From positions 186,001-250,000 of the forward strand of contig NZ_QMEM01000007.1 of assembly GCF_003390915.1 (NCBI RefSeq): a stretch of DNA of 64,000 bases, written 5' to 3'. Below, in pieces: positions 17,259-48,473 of the stretch. A model generated the notes under the pieces. That model saw nothing but the letters and a program-made list of their open reading frames with translations. It searched no databases and was not told the origin of the DNA. Position numbers and translations under genes: made by a program. How positions within the stretch are numbered: the first letter of the stretch is position 1; the number at the start of each line of letters is the position of its first letter. This DNA comes from Lewinella sp. IMCC34183. Lineage in GTDB: Bacteria > Bacteroidota > Bacteroidia > Chitinophagales > Saprospiraceae.

Positions 17259-18125
17259 CTAAGCCGCAACCACTCTAAAGTAGAAATTCTCGTTGGCAAT
17301 TTCGTAGGATTCCGGGCTCTGGTAACCCAGGCTCCGGTGGGGTCGATCGTAGTTGTAGGTCAGTGACCACTGCTGGAGCTGGTCGTTGAGCTCATCCAGA
17401 CTAGCGAACCAGCACTGATTCAAGCACTCAACCCGCAGCGTCTTGTTAAGGCGCTCGATCAGCCCGTTCTGGCTTGGCTTGCCGGGTTGGATGTGTTTGA
17501 GTTCGATAGCGTGGTCTGCGGCCCACTGCCGTAATTGATGACTGATGAACTCCGGGCCGTTGTCACACCGTATGTAAGCGGGGCACCCGCGGACTCCCAG
17601 TAATTGATCCAGTACTTCGATCAGCTTACGCGCCGAGATACTGGGATAAGCCTCCGTCCACAGCGCCTTGCGGGAACCTTCGTCCATCACGTTGATGATC
17701 CGCACCGGCTGTTGCTGCGGACCGACCACCCAATCGCTGACAAAATCCATCGCCCAGCCCTCGTTGATCCCGTCGGGAGGCAACAGTTCCCGGTATTCCA
17801 GCCGGATCCGGGCGCGCTTGGGTGGTAAGCGTAGGTGAAGTCCCGATGCGGTCCAGATCCGGTAGACCCGTTTATGATTGATGACGTGGCCCTGATTACG
17901 CAGGTAGTAAAAGATCATCCAGAAGCCCCAGGCCAGGAAGCGTTGGGCGGTACGCTCCAGTAAATCCTGCAACTCCCAGTCCCGCTCTTCGAAGCGAAAG
18001 CCCAGGCGGCGGTGATGGTAGGTCTGGCGGCGAAAGCCCAGGACGCGGCAGTTGCGGCGCACACTTTGCCGACGCTGCTGCCTGATCTGATCGATCATTG
18101 CTTCTTGGCGTCCTGGGCTTGCCAC
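17259..18125 (-). CDS. IS3-family transposase OrfB (DDE integrase domain)
   Basis: Catalytic half of the transposase, 288 residues from a GTG at 18125. It is probably made mainly as a fusion with OrfA by -1 frameshifting. The N-terminal HTH_21-like part (FLAWGFWMIFYYLRNQGHVI, NHKRVYRIW) precedes the rve integrase core. The DDE triad is visible as Asp in WAMDFVSDWV, Asp in AYIRCDNGPEF and Glu in GKPSQNGLIERLNKTLR. The ending YNYDRPHRSLGYQSP is family-typical. The stop codon lies inside the terminal inverted repeat. It would cut and join the ends of the element. Confidence 0.92.
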   Translation of the reverse strand: MASPGRQEAMIDQIRQQRRQSVRRNCRVLGFRRQTYHHRRLGFRFEERDWELQDLLERTAQRFLAWGFWMIFYYLRNQGHVINHKRVYRIWTASGLHLRLPPKRARIRLEYRELLPPDGINEGWAMDFVSDWVVGPQQQPVRIINVMDEGSRKALWTEAYPSISARKLIEVLDQLLGVRGCPAYIRCDNGPEFISHQLRQWAADHAIELKHIQPGKPSQNGLIERLNKTLRVECLNQCWFASLDELNDQLQQWSLTYNYDRPHRSLGYQSPESYEIANENFYFRVVAA

Positions 18126-18391
18126 TTTTTTAGCATGGCATAACCATCTGACAGGATGCCGTGATCAATACTGAGTTCGGCGTACATCTTCTTCAGCCGG
18201 GCGTTCTCCGCCTCCAGCTGCTTGAGCCGGCGCTTCGTCTCATCGGCCTCCTCGGCCTGTTCCTTCTTCCACTTGTAGAAGGTAGCCGCGCTGATCTGAT
18301 GCTGGCGACAGAGATCGGCTACGCTGGTCCCGGCGTCGTGCCGGGCCAAGATCTCAAGCCTCTGGGTGGGGGTAAACTTACTTTTCCGCAT
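18095..18391 (-). CDS. IS3-family OrfA (helix-turn-helix, leucine zipper)
   Basis: DNA-binding protein of 98 residues. The HTH_Tnp_1 region is FTPTQRLEILARHDAGTSVA, DLCRQHQISAATFYKWKKEQ, followed by a leucine-zipper-like helix (TKRRLKQLEAENARLKKMYA). It overlaps orfB by 31 nt, with orfB in the -1 frame. It should recognise the inverted repeats and regulate transposition. Confidence 0.92.
   Translation of the reverse strand: MRKSKFTPTQRLEILARHDAGTSVADLCRQHQISAATFYKWKKEQAEEADETKRRLKQLEAENARLKKMYAELSIDHGILSDGYAMLKKWQAQDAKKQ
18125..18131 (-). promoter_or_regulatory. Programmed -1 frameshift slippery heptamer (A AAA AAG)
   Basis: Near the 3' end of orfA the minus strand reads CTA AAA AAG TGG in the orfA frame. 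The A-AAA-AAG heptamer is the classic -1 slippery sequence used by many IS3 elements and dnaX. Slipping here enters the orfB frame, which is open across this point, and would give an OrfAB fusion. Confidence 0.75.
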
Positions 18392-19032: not shown

Positions 19033-19803
19033 ATGTCAAACATCCGCCCCTACCTATTAGCCGAAACCAACTGGAAGCACCTGAAGGACGAGACCATCGA
19101 CCTGGCCGTGCTGCCGTGGGGGGCCACCGAGGCCCACAACTACCACCTGCCGTACGGCACCGACAACTTCGAGGCCGACGGCCTGGCCACCGAGGCCGCC
19201 CGCCTGGCTTGGGAGCGGGGCAGCAAGGTGATCGTGCTGCCGGCCATCCCCTTCGGGATCAATACCGGACAGACGGACATTTACCTCGACATCAACCTGA
19301 ACCCCTCCACCCAGCTGGCGATCTTGCGGGACGTGATCCGTACCCTCGACCGGCAGGGCATCAAGAAGCTGCTCGTCTTCAACAGCCACGGGGGCAATAG
19401 CTTCAAGGTGCTGCTGAAGGAACTCGGCCTGGAGTTCCCGGAGATGTTCCTGTGTACCTCCAACTGGTTTCAGTCGGTGGACAAGACGGAGTACTTCGCG
19501 GAGGCCGGCGACCACGCCGATGAGATGGAGACCAGCCTGGTGATGCACCTGCGGCCGGAACTGGTGCTGCCCCTGGGGGAGGCAGGCCCGGGAACCGAAA
19601 AGAAGCACGTGATCAAGGCCTTCGAAGAGGGATGGGTCGCCCACGAGCGGCGGTGGTCGCAGGTGACCGACGACACCGGGATCGGCGATCCACGGCAGGC
19701 GAGCGCGGCGAAGGGGGAGCGGTTTTTCCACGACGTGGCGGGTAAATTCGCCGACCTCTTCGTGGAACTGGCCTCGCTGGACGTAAATACTATGTATCGC
19801 TAG
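19033..19803 (+). CDS. Creatininase family amidohydrolase
   Basis: Metal-dependent amidohydrolase-fold protein of 256 residues. Conserved metal-binding residues are visible: PWGATEAHNYHLPYGTDNF near residues 28-46 (Glu33, His35 and/or His38, Asp44), VFNSHGGNS near 115-123, and GDHADEMETSLV near 158. The family covers creatinine amidohydrolase, MftE-like peptidases and pyrimidine-degradation enzymes, so the substrate is open. No signal peptide, thus cytoplasmic. A weak -7-like TATACTTA lies 7 nt before the ATG. Confidence 0.9.
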   Translation: MSNIRPYLLAETNWKHLKDETIDLAVLPWGATEAHNYHLPYGTDNFEADGLATEAARLAWERGSKVIVLPAIPFGINTGQTDIYLDINLNPSTQLAILRDVIRTLDRQGIKKLLVFNSHGGNSFKVLLKELGLEFPEMFLCTSNWFQSVDKTEYFAEAGDHADEMETSLVMHLRPELVLPLGEAGPGTEKKHVIKAFEEGWVAHERRWSQVTDDTGIGDPRQASAAKGERFFHDVAGKFADLFVELASLDVNTMYR

Positions 19804-20146: not shown

Positions 20147-20212
20147 GGTAGGTTTCACACAGATCTACTACTGCGACGCAGAGGCGCTGCGCTTCAGTAC
20201 AGATTTTCGCGG
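20147..20212 (+). repeat. Dispersed intergenic repeat, copy 1
   Basis: Shares GTAGGTTTCAC with copy 4 (20970) and the block GCAGAGGCGCTGCGCTTCAG with copy 3 (20511). It ends in CAGATTTTCGCGG, a word common to the family. Confidence 0.6.
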
Positions 20213-20239
20213 TACTAATGCATATGCGCGCGGCACGAT

Positions 20240-20361
20240 CTTCTGATCCATTTCTATCCAGGGAAAAGAACGAAGAGCGGTGGGACAGTTTTACCGCAGA
20301 TAGCCTGCGGCACACACGGATTCGCTGCGCTCGGTCGCGGATTAACGCAGATTTTCCCGCA
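20240..20361 (+). repeat. Dispersed intergenic repeat, copy 2 (composite)
   Basis: Starts with TCTATCCAGGGAAAAGAACG, then after a spacer AGCCTGCGGCACACACGG, ATTCGCTGCGC, and finally ATTAACGCAGATTTTCCCGC. The same order of blocks occurs at 20909-21050, so the two are diverged duplicates of a unit about 120 bp long. Confidence 0.65.
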
Positions 20362-20510
20362 TGCCGGTAGCATAGTAATAAGATGGCTGTCGCTGCGCAA
20401 TACAGCACAACGCGCGAAAATCTGTGGGAATCCGCGCCTTGAATCCGCGAAAATCTATGTTAACCTTTACGAGCCGCAGGCGAGCAAAAGCCCCCGCGCA
20501 TCTGAAACAA

Positions 20511-20581
20511 AGTTTAACACAGAGCGCCTGCGGCGGCACAGAGGCGCTGCGCTTCAGTATAGATCTTCGCAGATTCCCGCA
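20511..20581 (+). repeat. Dispersed intergenic repeat, copy 3
   Basis: Contains ACAGAGCGCCTGCGGCGGCA, then CAGAGGCGCTGCGCTTCAGT and ATAGATCTTCGCAGATTCCC. It combines the CGCCTGCGGC block of copies 2 and 4 with the CGCTGCGCTTCAG block of copy 1. Confidence 0.6.
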
Positions 20582-20908
20582 GGGCTGATGCAGGATTACG
20601 CAGAGCGGGCCCGACCTACGGTGTGGCCACGGGAACTGTTGTCGTCGACTTACTTGATACTGCGAGTAGTACCAATTGGTACGCGTCAACACAGGCAGAC
20701 AAGGGGTCGGAGCAACCGCCCTTGCGAACGCCCGGGAGCCGGGCCGCGAACCGGCGTGAAGAAACCTACACTGTCTGAGCCGGTATGAATAATGAGGTCC
20801 CCAATGTTCATCAGTCGAGAACGTGTATCATCGGAGGGTATACCGCCAACGCGAGTTTGTAGGTTTTAGCCGGTTCGGGGTTCGGAGCCCGATCAGGCGG
20901 GCGCAGAG

Positions 20909-21050
20909 GCTTGATCTTTTGGTTCTTTTCTATCAAGAGAAAAGAACGAAGGGGACGGGTTTCCGGTGAAGTAGGTTTCACCCAGAGCGCCTGCGGCTGA
21001 CACGTATTCGCTGCGCCCGGACACACCGATCAACGCAGATTTTCCCGCAC
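20909..21050 (+). repeat. Dispersed intergenic repeat, copy 4 (composite, with palindrome)
   Basis: A perfect 10-bp stem GTTCTTTTCT/AGAAAAGAAC with a 6-nt loop (20922-20947) is followed by GTAGGTTTCACCCAGAGCGC, CTGCGGCTGACACG, ATTCGCTGCGC and AACGCAGATTTTCCCGCA. It ends 3 bp before the stop of the GH43 gene. The stem is REP-like rather than a standard terminator, because no T-run follows on either side. Confidence 0.65.
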
Positions 21051-21053
21051 CGC

Positions 21054-22052
21054 CTATTCAGCGGGCGCAACGGACGGATAGGGAAGCAACACCCCATCCG
21101 CTACCGGCACGCCGAACCGGGGGATATTATTCTCCCAGAAGAAGGGCTGCATCTTGACGTAGCGGGCCGACCAGCCGCCGCCGGGCGCGGGCACGGCGTG
21201 GTAGACGATCCAGTTCTGCCCGCCAATACGGGTGAAGGAGCAGTGGCCGGGACTGACTACGCCTTCCGTGCCCTCGAAGACGGGGTCGGGTGCCTTGGTC
21301 CACGCCGCCGCGTCGAGGGGGTCGTCGCCGGTAAGCGTAAGCCGGCCGAGGCAGTAGTAATCGGACCAACTGCCGCTGGCCGAATAAATGATGTGGGTAG
21401 TACCGTCGCGCTGGAGGATTTGCGGCCCCTCGTTGATGGTGGGCAGCTCGGCGGAGGAGCCACGCTTTTCCCACGCCCGGTCGGGACGGGAAATGAGTAC
21501 GCGCTCCGAGGCGATCGCCGTGGGGGAAGACATCTCCGCGATGTAGATATTCTGACTGACGTTGGCGTCGCCCGCCCATCCCGACCAGACAAAGTACCGC
21601 TTGCCGCCGTGCTCCAGGACGGTGCCGTCGATGGCCCACTTGTCAGAGGGGTCGCTGACCTTGCCCGCGTAGCGGAAAGGTCCGGCCAGGGAATCCGCGG
21701 CGGAGACCAACACGTGCATCCGGTGGGTGGCGTTATTGCCGTCGTCGGCGGCTACATAGACGTACCAGCGGTCGTCGATATGGTGCAGCTCGGGCGCCCA
21801 CAGCTCGTGGCTATAGGCGGTACCCTCCGGGGGCGTCCAGAGCCTGGTGGCGGGCGCACCGGCCAACTCGCGCACGTCGGTGGCGGAACGCACCCAGATG
21901 GATCCCCCGCGGGAGTAGCAGTAGTGGTACTGGTCACCGTCCTGGACGATCCAGGGATCGGCCCCCTTTTCCAGCAGGGGGTTGGCGAAGCTGCCGGGCG
22001 GCTGGGCCGGAAGGAGAGAAGCGGCGAATAAGAGTAAGAGCAGAAGCGGCAT
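21054..22052 (-). CDS. Glycoside hydrolase family 43 protein
   Basis: Exported five-bladed propeller glycosidase of 332 residues. The ATG at 22052 gives a signal peptide (MPLLLLLLFAASLLPAQ). The three GH43 acids can be placed: Asp32 in KGADPWIVQDGD (general base), the Asp of KWAIDGTVLEH near residue 140 (pKa modulator) and the Glu of PTINEGPQILQRDG near 206 (general acid). SHELWAPELHHIDDRWYVYV is also typical. Members cleave arabinan, xylan or arabinoxylan side chains. The exact specificity is not visible. It probably acts in the periplasm or outside on plant or algal polysaccharide. No SusC/SusD pair is adjacent. Confidence 0.9.
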   Translation of the reverse strand: MPLLLLLLFAASLLPAQPPGSFANPLLEKGADPWIVQDGDQYHYCYSRGGSIWVRSATDVRELAGAPATRLWTPPEGTAYSHELWAPELHHIDDRWYVYVAADDGNNATHRMHVLVSAADSLAGPFRYAGKVSDPSDKWAIDGTVLEHGGKRYFVWSGWAGDANVSQNIYIAEMSSPTAIASERVLISRPDRAWEKRGSSAELPTINEGPQILQRDGTTHIIYSASGSWSDYYCLGRLTLTGDDPLDAAAWTKAPDPVFEGTEGVVSPGHCSFTRIGGQNWIVYHAVPAPGGGWSARYVKMQPFFWENNIPRFGVPVADGVLLPYPSVAPAE

Positions 22053-22106
22053 TGCGGACAAAGGACGGTGGGAGGGGAAGGTAGGGGTCTCCGGCCGTCC
22101 GTCACC

Positions 22107-48323: not shown

Positions 48324-48467
48324 TTTTTTTACCACAGATCGCCTGCGGCGTCACGGATCGCTGCGCGGGTTCACAGATTAGCACGGATTCACTGCGTTAC
48401 TGATCCCCGGTTTCCGCAGCCCAGCTGCAAAATCCGTGACCAAAATCCGTGAATCCGTGGTGAAAAA
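48324..48467. repeat. Inverted-repeat block, related to the dispersed repeat family (copy 5)
   Basis: The left arm (TTTTTTTACCACAGAT, from 48324) is nearly complementary to the right arm (ATCCGTGGTGAAAAA, ending 48467), so the whole block could fold as one long hairpin. The left side contains ATCGCCTGCGGCGTCACGG and ATCGCTGCGC, the same words as the repeats at 20.1-21.05 kb. CACGGATT/AATCCGTG words recur on both sides. It lies exactly between two convergent genes and may help end transcription. Confidence 0.6.
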
Positions 48468-48473
48468 CCCCAC

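Follow-up and report, generated by a model that had tools for sequence, protein, structure and literature searches.

We analyzed a 64,000-nt stretch of the genome of Lewinella sp. IMCC34183 (contig NZ_QMEM01000007.1, positions 186,001 to 250,000), which we will call the window. A cluster of repeats lies between a creatininase-family gene (19033–19803, + strand) and a GH43-family gene (21054–22061, – strand). As the original prediction stated, these repeats are placed between genes; two small open reading frames (ORFs) inside the repeat stretch have no Pfam match at E ≤ 0.01. Five copies of a repeat had been described, at 20147, 20240, 20511, 20909, and 48324, and we checked that the repeated words are present at those positions. 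However, the claim that all five copies have the same words in the same order was overstated. CCTGCGGC is found in copies 2, 3, and 4 and in the copy at 48324 but not in copy 1, and AACGCAGATTTTCCCGC is found in copies 2 and 4 only (the copy at 48324 lacks it). Copies 1 and 3 are 83% identical over 59 nt, and copies 2 and 4 align in three blocks (44 nt at 82% identity, 57 nt at 75%, and 22 nt at 95%).

Comparing this stretch to itself showed a flanking repeat, which we will call the A repeat. Copy 1 (20152–20215) matches copy 3 (20512–20620), which lies upstream of the core element described below, and copy 2 (20278–20366) matches copy 4 (20964–21050), which directly follows the core. All four are on the + strand. 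The antisense words that had been reported at 20411–20460 were also found by self-comparison, as inverted matches, and they form a piece of the A repeat on the – strand. The fifth copy is a lone A-type repeat (48329–48470, + strand) with reverse-complement words in its right half, and the covariance model R1 (see below) finds no core there. In the A repeats (20152–21050 and 48329–48470), CACAGAT and ACGGAT words are interspersed with small palindromes (GCCTGCGGC, CGCTGCGCT). Periodic words that are similar to these (ACGCAGAGACGC, TTAGATTTTAGAC) adjoin elements in other genomes (loci L115 and L104). To the left of the creatininase-family gene, two overlapping ORFs on the – strand (17259–18391), with the Pfam domains HTH_Tnp_1 and rve_3, are presumably an IS3-type element.

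Between copies 3 and 4 of the A repeat lies a hairpin element that the original prediction overlooked (20715–20960, + strand). This is the part of the window with the highest similarity to the rest of the genome (19 other long matches at 77–83% identity). It is a full copy, with a core and a 3' module; R1 places the core at 20715–20904 with a score of 201.9 bits, as measured by a model that was built from this genome's copies, including this one. All of the parts that follow are on the + strand. The left strand of the closing stem P1 (GCC, 20718–20720) pairs with 20908–20910, and this pairing covaries in the alignment A3 (see below). The internal-loop motif consists of a left half (ACTGTNTGAGC, 20770–20780), which also served as a search pattern, and a right half (GCGAGTTT, 20851–20858); both are conserved in A3. 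Between the two halves is an apical domain of variable sequence, which is 70 nt here (20781–20850). The 3' module (20910–20947) starts with CTTGAT (20910–20915), followed by a hairpin (20922–20931 with 20938–20947) whose loop, ATCAAG (20932–20937), is complementary to CTTGAT, so this is a candidate pseudoknot. The GAAAAGAACGAA start that copies 2 and 4 were said to have in common is indeed shared, and it is the 3' end of this element. The other instance is a remnant of a second element with the 3' module only (20232–20275, + strand), which is 82% identical to 20908–20951. The predicted fold of the window copy has an energy of –109.7 kcal/mol, versus a mean of –83.9 for shuffled sequences (z = –5.2; none of 200 shuffles was as low).

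The repeats are dispersed in this 5.1 Mb genome. The region 20240–20366 matches 30 places at E ≤ 0.01 (including itself), which is beyond chance; its best other copies have E values of 2e-15 and 4e-15, with 72–75% identity. A DNA search with 20700–20960 found 27 places. We ran R1 on the window and on chosen regions of the genome. At 13 places, always on the motif strand, it matched 18 full-length copies and three that are truncated by the end of a contig (166, 151, and 35 nt). If the truncated ones are counted, at least two cores are present at seven of these places, with starts 484–506 bp apart. Hence, the proposed unit of about 70–120 bp is the flanking part alone: the tandem unit is 484–506 bp, and contains an element of about 245 nt, of which the core is 190 nt and the remainder includes the 3' module. 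In an alignment of 19 copies from this genome (one of them cut), the core is 190–191 nt, its arms are complementary, and its middle is variable. R1 was built from 18 copies; alignment A1 excludes the cut copy C3_109.2k.

Matches to the A repeat come in series (such as 1239607, 1240113, and 1240617 on contig C34, or 8199, 8679, and 9168 on contig C5), so the repeat unit is longer than the shared words. Similarly, self-comparison of 16 fetched regions found direct repeats, with 67–98% identity, in most of them. Single cores are flanked on both sides by A-related sequence in the window, at L042 (145 bp, 87%), and at L039 (79%); at L041, a partial second core takes the place of the A-related flanks. 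We also found a derivative that has both arms but no tip (L034, 2311–2357, 47 nt). Arrays reach the contig ends on C3, C5, C25, and C30, so the copy number in this genome is a lower bound. We saw no outer inverted repeats around the arrays in this genome. Because the arrays read A-(core-A)n, it is plausible that they grew by recombination between A repeats.

Within the family (Saprospiraceae), R1 matched 10 of 298 genomes including IMCC34183 (9 of 297 others), from 7 of 112 genera; in a sample of the phylum, it matched this genome only (1 of 296). These runs used strict filters, eight scored candidates per genome, and a model derived from this genome's copies. Most matches in relatives cover the full model at 50–70 bits, and a few score 30–41 bits. 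At the level of the genus, presence is patchy, with R1 matches in two of five relatives. By DNA similarity, the 3' module alone is widespread (28 of 298 family genomes at E ≤ 1e-5, including this one). We found no match in phages and two matching plasmid records, both with the 3' module alone (20908–20951 of the window); these are from Ilyobacter and Parabacteroides. As the 3' module is found by itself in 27 of 297 other family genomes and on plasmids, perhaps it also occurs independently of the core. By eye, the aligned relatives share CG-CCTT, GCGTTAA(A/G)AA, ACTGTNTGAGC, GCGAGTTT, TTTAG, and the 3' module. In L107 (97–308) and L131 (1693–1750), GC-rich palindromes of about 20–24 bp appear to have inserted in the arms, and sister copies lack them.

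The alignment A3, made with MAFFT, has 30 sequences: 20 of the 25 R1 matches from relatives (L107, L110, L111, L129, and L131 were left out), four loci that were found with a sequence pattern (see below), and six copies from IMCC34183. L149 is visibly misaligned, and we did not score the lower stem because its register shifts. At 17 pairs, 93.9% of cells are paired, versus 71.2% after shuffling; 110 cells have changed on both sides, versus 30.4; and the covariation score is 0.590, versus 0.173. None of 500 shuffles reached any of these values. Two weaker measures were the number of pairs with a double change (12 versus 9.7, reached in 8 of 500 shuffles) and the number of further pair types (30 versus 26.1, reached in 17 of 500). 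If the partners are slid by 1–3 columns, then the score falls to 0.063–0.112. The 17 pairs were drawn after viewing A3, and 20 of its 30 members were gathered with the structure model R1, so the pairing in A3 is partly selected for; this does not apply to P1 or to the set found with the tip pattern. Furthermore, related copies are not independent, and shuffling does not remove kinship. P1 (columns 26–28 with 263–265) is outside the pairs of R1, yet it covaries: it is 97.8% paired, and its middle pair (27:264) is CG in 11 sequences, GC in 10, AU in 7, UA in 1, and something else in 1. Thus, the fold is kept by compensatory changes while its letters diverge.

The tip motif is laid out as ACTGTNTGA-GC ... 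GC-GAGTTT, which leaves UGA-GC/GC-GA. We take this to be a tandem G-A arrangement as in kink-turns (kink-turn-like by its letters). In the 3' module, the loop of the hairpin and the upstream segment pair as CTTGAT/ATCAAG, CTTGAC/GTCAAG, GCAG/CTGC, or ATGG/CCAT. A script found complementarity of at least 4 bp, and hence the candidate pseudoknot, in 70 of 114 hairpins and not in the other 44; with swapped loops, the mean was 28.7 and the maximum was 41 (300 shuffles). These counts support a 3' pseudoknot. In most members that we viewed, the 5' strand of the 3' hairpin is T-rich, its 3' strand is A-rich, and the linker is T-rich, so a U.A-U triple helix may form here.

To look beyond the reach of R1, we scanned the named genome collection with a pattern for the tip (ACTGTNTGAGCN{62,92}GCGAGTTT). 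Outside of this genome's copies, it gave at least 131 matches in at least 115 stretches; these are lower bounds and are biased by the order of the scan. The matches were chosen by the loop motif and not by the pairing of stems, yet an outer stem of 5 bp or more is present in 90 of the 131 matches listed, versus 13.3 with swapped partners. The other 41 were excluded from the stem-positive set, and many of them are probably due to chance. The 79 stem-positive loci listed are from Bacteroidota (55), Thermodesulfobacteriota (16), Bacillota (6), and Pseudomonadota (1), with one unplaced; the matches fall mainly in Bacteroidota, Desulfobacterales, and Lutispora. The other 36 loci listed include Actinomycetota and other phyla, and those are likely chance. 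Two loci from a Thermoanaerobaculia MAG (Acidobacteriota; L138 and L159) have hairpins in tandem, at distances of 438 and 166 bp, which share the tip motif and have a wider loop; they fail our simple stem test and yet, by eye, look like true members.

In all 90 stem-positive matches listed, the apical domain is 62–76 nt, where the pattern allowed 62–92 nt (62 nt is thus the pattern's own lower limit); in 9 of the 41 stem-negative matches listed, it is above 76 nt. The apical domain of the matches listed is rich in A (39%) and has weak structure (mean z of –0.37, with 12 of 88 below –2). Most of the listed elements are intergenic (70 of 90, versus 67 of 450 random windows). For the fold tests, we removed duplicate cores, which left 88 of the 90 stem-positive matches and 129 of all 131, and we then dropped those with flanks that were too short, which left 85 and 125. 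In viral contigs, the tip motif with loops of 2–122 nt gave 92 matches. An outer stem of 5 bp or more is present in 11 of these, versus 5.5 with swapped flanks, so most viral matches are due to chance. Those that convince us have either a short tip (L251, L253, L257, and L258) or a 41-nt tip (L287). A short-tip pattern found just four matches in 3 of 296 genomes of the phylum; a reversed control found one.

Among 125 unselected unique matches listed, 97 have a motif strand that is predicted to fold more stably than the complement; if one match is used per locus, this holds for 89 of 111. Considered separately, both the core without the 3' module (88 of 125 matches listed) and the 3' part (90 of 125) have this preference, whereas the apical domain does not (53 of 125). 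The motif strand was also more stable in 18 of 18 copies from IMCC34183 and in 23 of 25 relatives, versus 40 of 85 control stretches. For consensus folds, RNAalifold gave –45.4 kcal/mol for the motif strand and –31.6 for the complement with this genome's alignment, and –47.1 versus –31.3 with A3. This suggests that a folded single strand is selected. Single-stranded DNA could show the same preference, so it does not by itself imply RNA, and a hairpin of single-stranded DNA is the alternative to an RNA form. Counts of G-U and A-C cells in the outer stems (23 and 19 with a symmetric filter) give no evidence for an RNA form. Given the 3' pseudoknot and a fold that is rich in motifs, we lean towards an RNA copy of the motif strand as the selected form.

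Copies from Lutispora, from Desulfobotulus, and from a Saprospiraceae MAG set are homologous as far as their inverted repeats and no further. These ends were identified by eye, and their sequence differs by group; yet another pair of inverted-repeat ends was seen by eye in genome G160. Hairpin repeats are very dense in Lutispora saccharofermentans (G588; L135 and L392–L427), whose 4.3 Mb genome has 107 + 105 = 212 matches to the two ends, while a reversed control pattern has 3 + 6 = 9. Among the matches listed, there are 32 pairs: four of 43–58 bp, one of 75 bp, six of 124–125 bp, two of 134–135 bp, seven of 169–171 bp, nine of 233–241 bp, and one each of 253, 281, and 316 bp. In these 32 listed pairs, the two ends of a copy differ by an average of 1.09 bases, versus 2.22 if they are re-paired (0 of 2,000 re-pairings were as low); the ends are identical in 7 pairs and not identical in 25. 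We read 12 distinct pairs in full. The 58-bp form is nothing more than the base of the hairpin, and the 125-bp forms have no tip motif. A short tip (GAGCCGAAGCGAG) is present in the 169-bp form, and the 234–235-bp forms add the apical domain; longer ones carry inserts. L397 and L420 are at different loci and are both of the 125-bp class, and they have an identical tip junction. That such copies share a junction implies that the shortened forms spread too. Because forms without the tip are found at more than one locus, spread in Lutispora does not require the conserved tip.

In the Lutispora flanks that we viewed, there was no consistent target duplication, and several of the hairpin repeats are flanked by TTAA-like sequence. 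Two widely spaced pairs of ends enclose genes, and by eye we recognized a transposase in neither. Inverted pairs of elements are found in Neolewinella aurantiaca (with units of about 750 bp) and in G193, and in SURF_3, two loci have opposite matches, of which one at each fails the stem test. We saw no empty site in relatives of IMCC34183: around the creatininase gene, there is no synteny in G006, and by DNA BLAST of that region against G193, G276, and G116, the gene itself matches and nothing else does. The gene beside the array on C34 was found in one of five relatives, at 32% identity.

We found no mobilizing enzyme by searching for Y1_Tnp or reverse transcriptase genes or by clustering neighboring ORFs. 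The clustering covered the neighborhoods of the stem-positive pattern loci in genomes other than IMCC34183 (415 ORFs). Two of the clusters, which we named by eye as ABC-ATPase (5 loci) and PAS/sensor-like (4 loci), were rejected as associated proteins because they are too general to count; the remaining clusters are ORFs that overlap the repeats themselves. We also considered that the apical domain might be a guide, which is possible but not supported: the longest exact match of a domain in its own flanks averaged 10.7, slightly more than the 9.5 of swapped domains, in the sense direction, and 10.0 versus 9.4 in the antisense direction (not all related copies were masked). We rejected an intrinsic terminator as well (2 terminator-like sites, versus 1.3 in shuffles). 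No sigma-70-like promoter was found, using a model that does not cover the promoters of Bacteroidota.

With modest confidence, we propose that these repeats are a family of non-autonomous hairpin elements, that a folded single strand of the element, probably RNA, is under selection, and that the elements are spread in trans via their ends. As part of the same proposal, and with similar confidence, the window holds one member of this dispersed family. The unit would be a long hairpin with imperfect pairing, a fixed internal-loop motif close to the tip, and an A-rich apical domain in a narrow range of lengths, followed by a short closing stem and then by a 3' hairpin that pairs through its loop with the bases immediately upstream. 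The selected form would be this folded single strand, most likely as an RNA copy, and an enzyme acting in trans would recognize the outer ends and spread the element. In IMCC34183, recombination between the direct A repeats might then expand A-core-A into tandem arrays. More tentatively, the family could be an unrecorded class of selfish, mobile structured RNAs that crosses phyla, with a kink-turn-like tip, an exposed A-rich apical domain in a narrow range of lengths, and a 3' pseudoknot in which a U.A-U triple helix may form; an enzyme would recognize this fold, which could shed its tip to give shorter mobile hairpins; we think this broader version is possible but doubtful.

An ordinary MITE is an unlikely explanation. 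A DDE transposase would then have the double-stranded inverted repeats as its substrate, with the inner hairpin as an old passenger. This would account for the abrupt ends, with inverted repeats of about 16–20 bp, and for copies that keep little besides their ends (4 of the 32 Lutispora pairs listed, at 43–58 bp, one of which was viewed in full). But the ends vary in sequence between genomes and stay complementary, and they are more alike within one copy than between copies (although gene conversion could have the same effect). Also against a MITE, the inner stems covary, several phyla have the tip motif in common, and the motif strand folds better than its complement. The Lutispora flanks had no consistent target duplication and, by eye, the two wide pairs of ends no recognizable transposase, which may speak against a MITE as well. 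Somewhat less probable is a REP/BIME-like or TIRYT-like system, in which a Y1 (HUH) tyrosine transposase recognizes the hairpin in single-stranded DNA. The better folding of one strand fits this idea, as do the BIME-like inverted pairs and arrays in N. aurantiaca and G193. Furthermore, all 11 genomes that we searched have Y1_Tnp genes, and Y1 genes flanked by terminal inverted repeats are described (PMC3733652). The original prediction had suggested a search for RAYT-type transposases, and we rejected the link on location: when Y1_Tnp loci were compared to the elements by BLAST, with up to 1.5 kb of flanking sequence, 46 of 47 had no match. The exception is a match of 27 nt in Lutispora, and we estimate that the density of ends there predicts about as much. 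(L431 has a lone ACTGTTTGAGC word.) In IMCC34183, a RAYT-like Y1 gene (C34:1244319–1244600, L349) has REP-like palindromes (CGGGCCGGAGGCCCTCAACCCG...) on both sides. It is 3.7 kb from an array, and by eye the palindromes around it are a different family. G006 has Y1 genes but no R1 match among its eight scored candidates, and neither a GTAG nor a CGTC tag was seen.

It is also improbable, and more so than either transposase-based explanation, that the element is a functional small RNA gene which was multiplied by ordinary duplication and is not itself mobile. A covarying fold with a 3' pseudoknot, the narrow range of apical lengths, and the tandem arrays would all be expected, whereas inverted-repeat ends at unrelated loci, 212 end matches in one genome, the patchy presence within the genus (two of five relatives), and the lack of a convincing recurrent neighbor gene would not. 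Integron-type attC sites (a CALIN) with an oversized stem seem very improbable. Those too are imperfect hairpins in arrays with conserved ends and a variable middle. The outer boxes of attC sites read RYYYAAC...GTTRRRY, but the outer ends in Lutispora read GTT...AAC, and the ends in IMCC34183 differ as well; moreover, the units within an array are near-identical, and those that we viewed carry no long ORF. We give equally little credence to a bacterial SINE, whose RNA would be copied back by a reverse transcriptase in trans. The structured 3' end and the multi-copy spread suit a SINE, but we rejected the reverse-transcriptase route because the genome of IMCC34183 (98% complete) has no RVT_1 match. 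RVT_1 is also absent from G264, which has the element, and present in G006, G116, and G276, which do not. The SINE reading is also disfavored by the ends, which are inverted repeats, and by the shortened forms, which lose the tip and not the 5' end.

If our proposal of a non-autonomous hairpin family is correct, then one structural family explains high-copy intergenic repeats in bacteria as unrelated as Saprospirales, Desulfobacterales, and Lutispora, and a covarying structure with a pseudoknot is absent from Rfam 15. The family would be a definite starting point in the search for whatever spreads an element that is folded and has no protein of its own, and it would add one more to the bacterial repeats in which selection may act on the structure of the transcript. 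The element resembles the structured RNAs of Rfam 15 in its covarying fold, conserved loops, and pseudoknot. No Rfam 15 family matched 16 loci and the window at gathering scores, and at E ≤ 1, searches with 19 loci and with 6 loci each had one unrelated weak match. Our searches of open-access papers turned up no description of this hairpin family.

The candidate 3' pseudoknot can be compared to triple-helix pseudoknots, such as that of telomerase RNA. Both have an H-type topology in which the first loop is rich in U and the second stem in U and A, but the linker lengths of the 3' module may not allow the possible triple helix. The SAM-V riboswitch (PMC6061858) is another such pseudoknot for comparison.

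Among mobile elements, the REP, attC, and reverse transcriptase-mobilized classes do not fit by their defining features, and the MITE class fits in part: noncoding elements with terminal inverted repeats are found, by eye, in Lutispora, in Desulfobotulus, in the Saprospiraceae MAG set, and in G160. The original prediction of a mobile or REP-like noncoding repeat holds in that this is a dispersed, noncoding, intergenic family; membership in REP does not. Like REPs and BIMEs, these are intergenic palindromes that form inverted pairs and arrays in some genomes. But REP palindromes are 20–40 bp with a GTAG or CGTC tag at one end (PMC3733652), while the hairpin element is 190–245 nt, no association with a Y1 gene was found, and inspection of the aligned element ends found neither tag. 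In its way of working, the nearest known system seems to be ERIC (PMC2229807): ERIC is a 127-bp enterobacterial element, and ERIC, IRU, and RU-1 are multi-copy, non-autonomous, and intergenic repeats that can be transcribed and fold as RNA. Unlike ERIC, the hairpin family has a 3' pseudoknot and a tip motif that several phyla share; its apical domain varies little in length, its copies fall into nested length classes, and its inverted ends have different sequences in different genomes.
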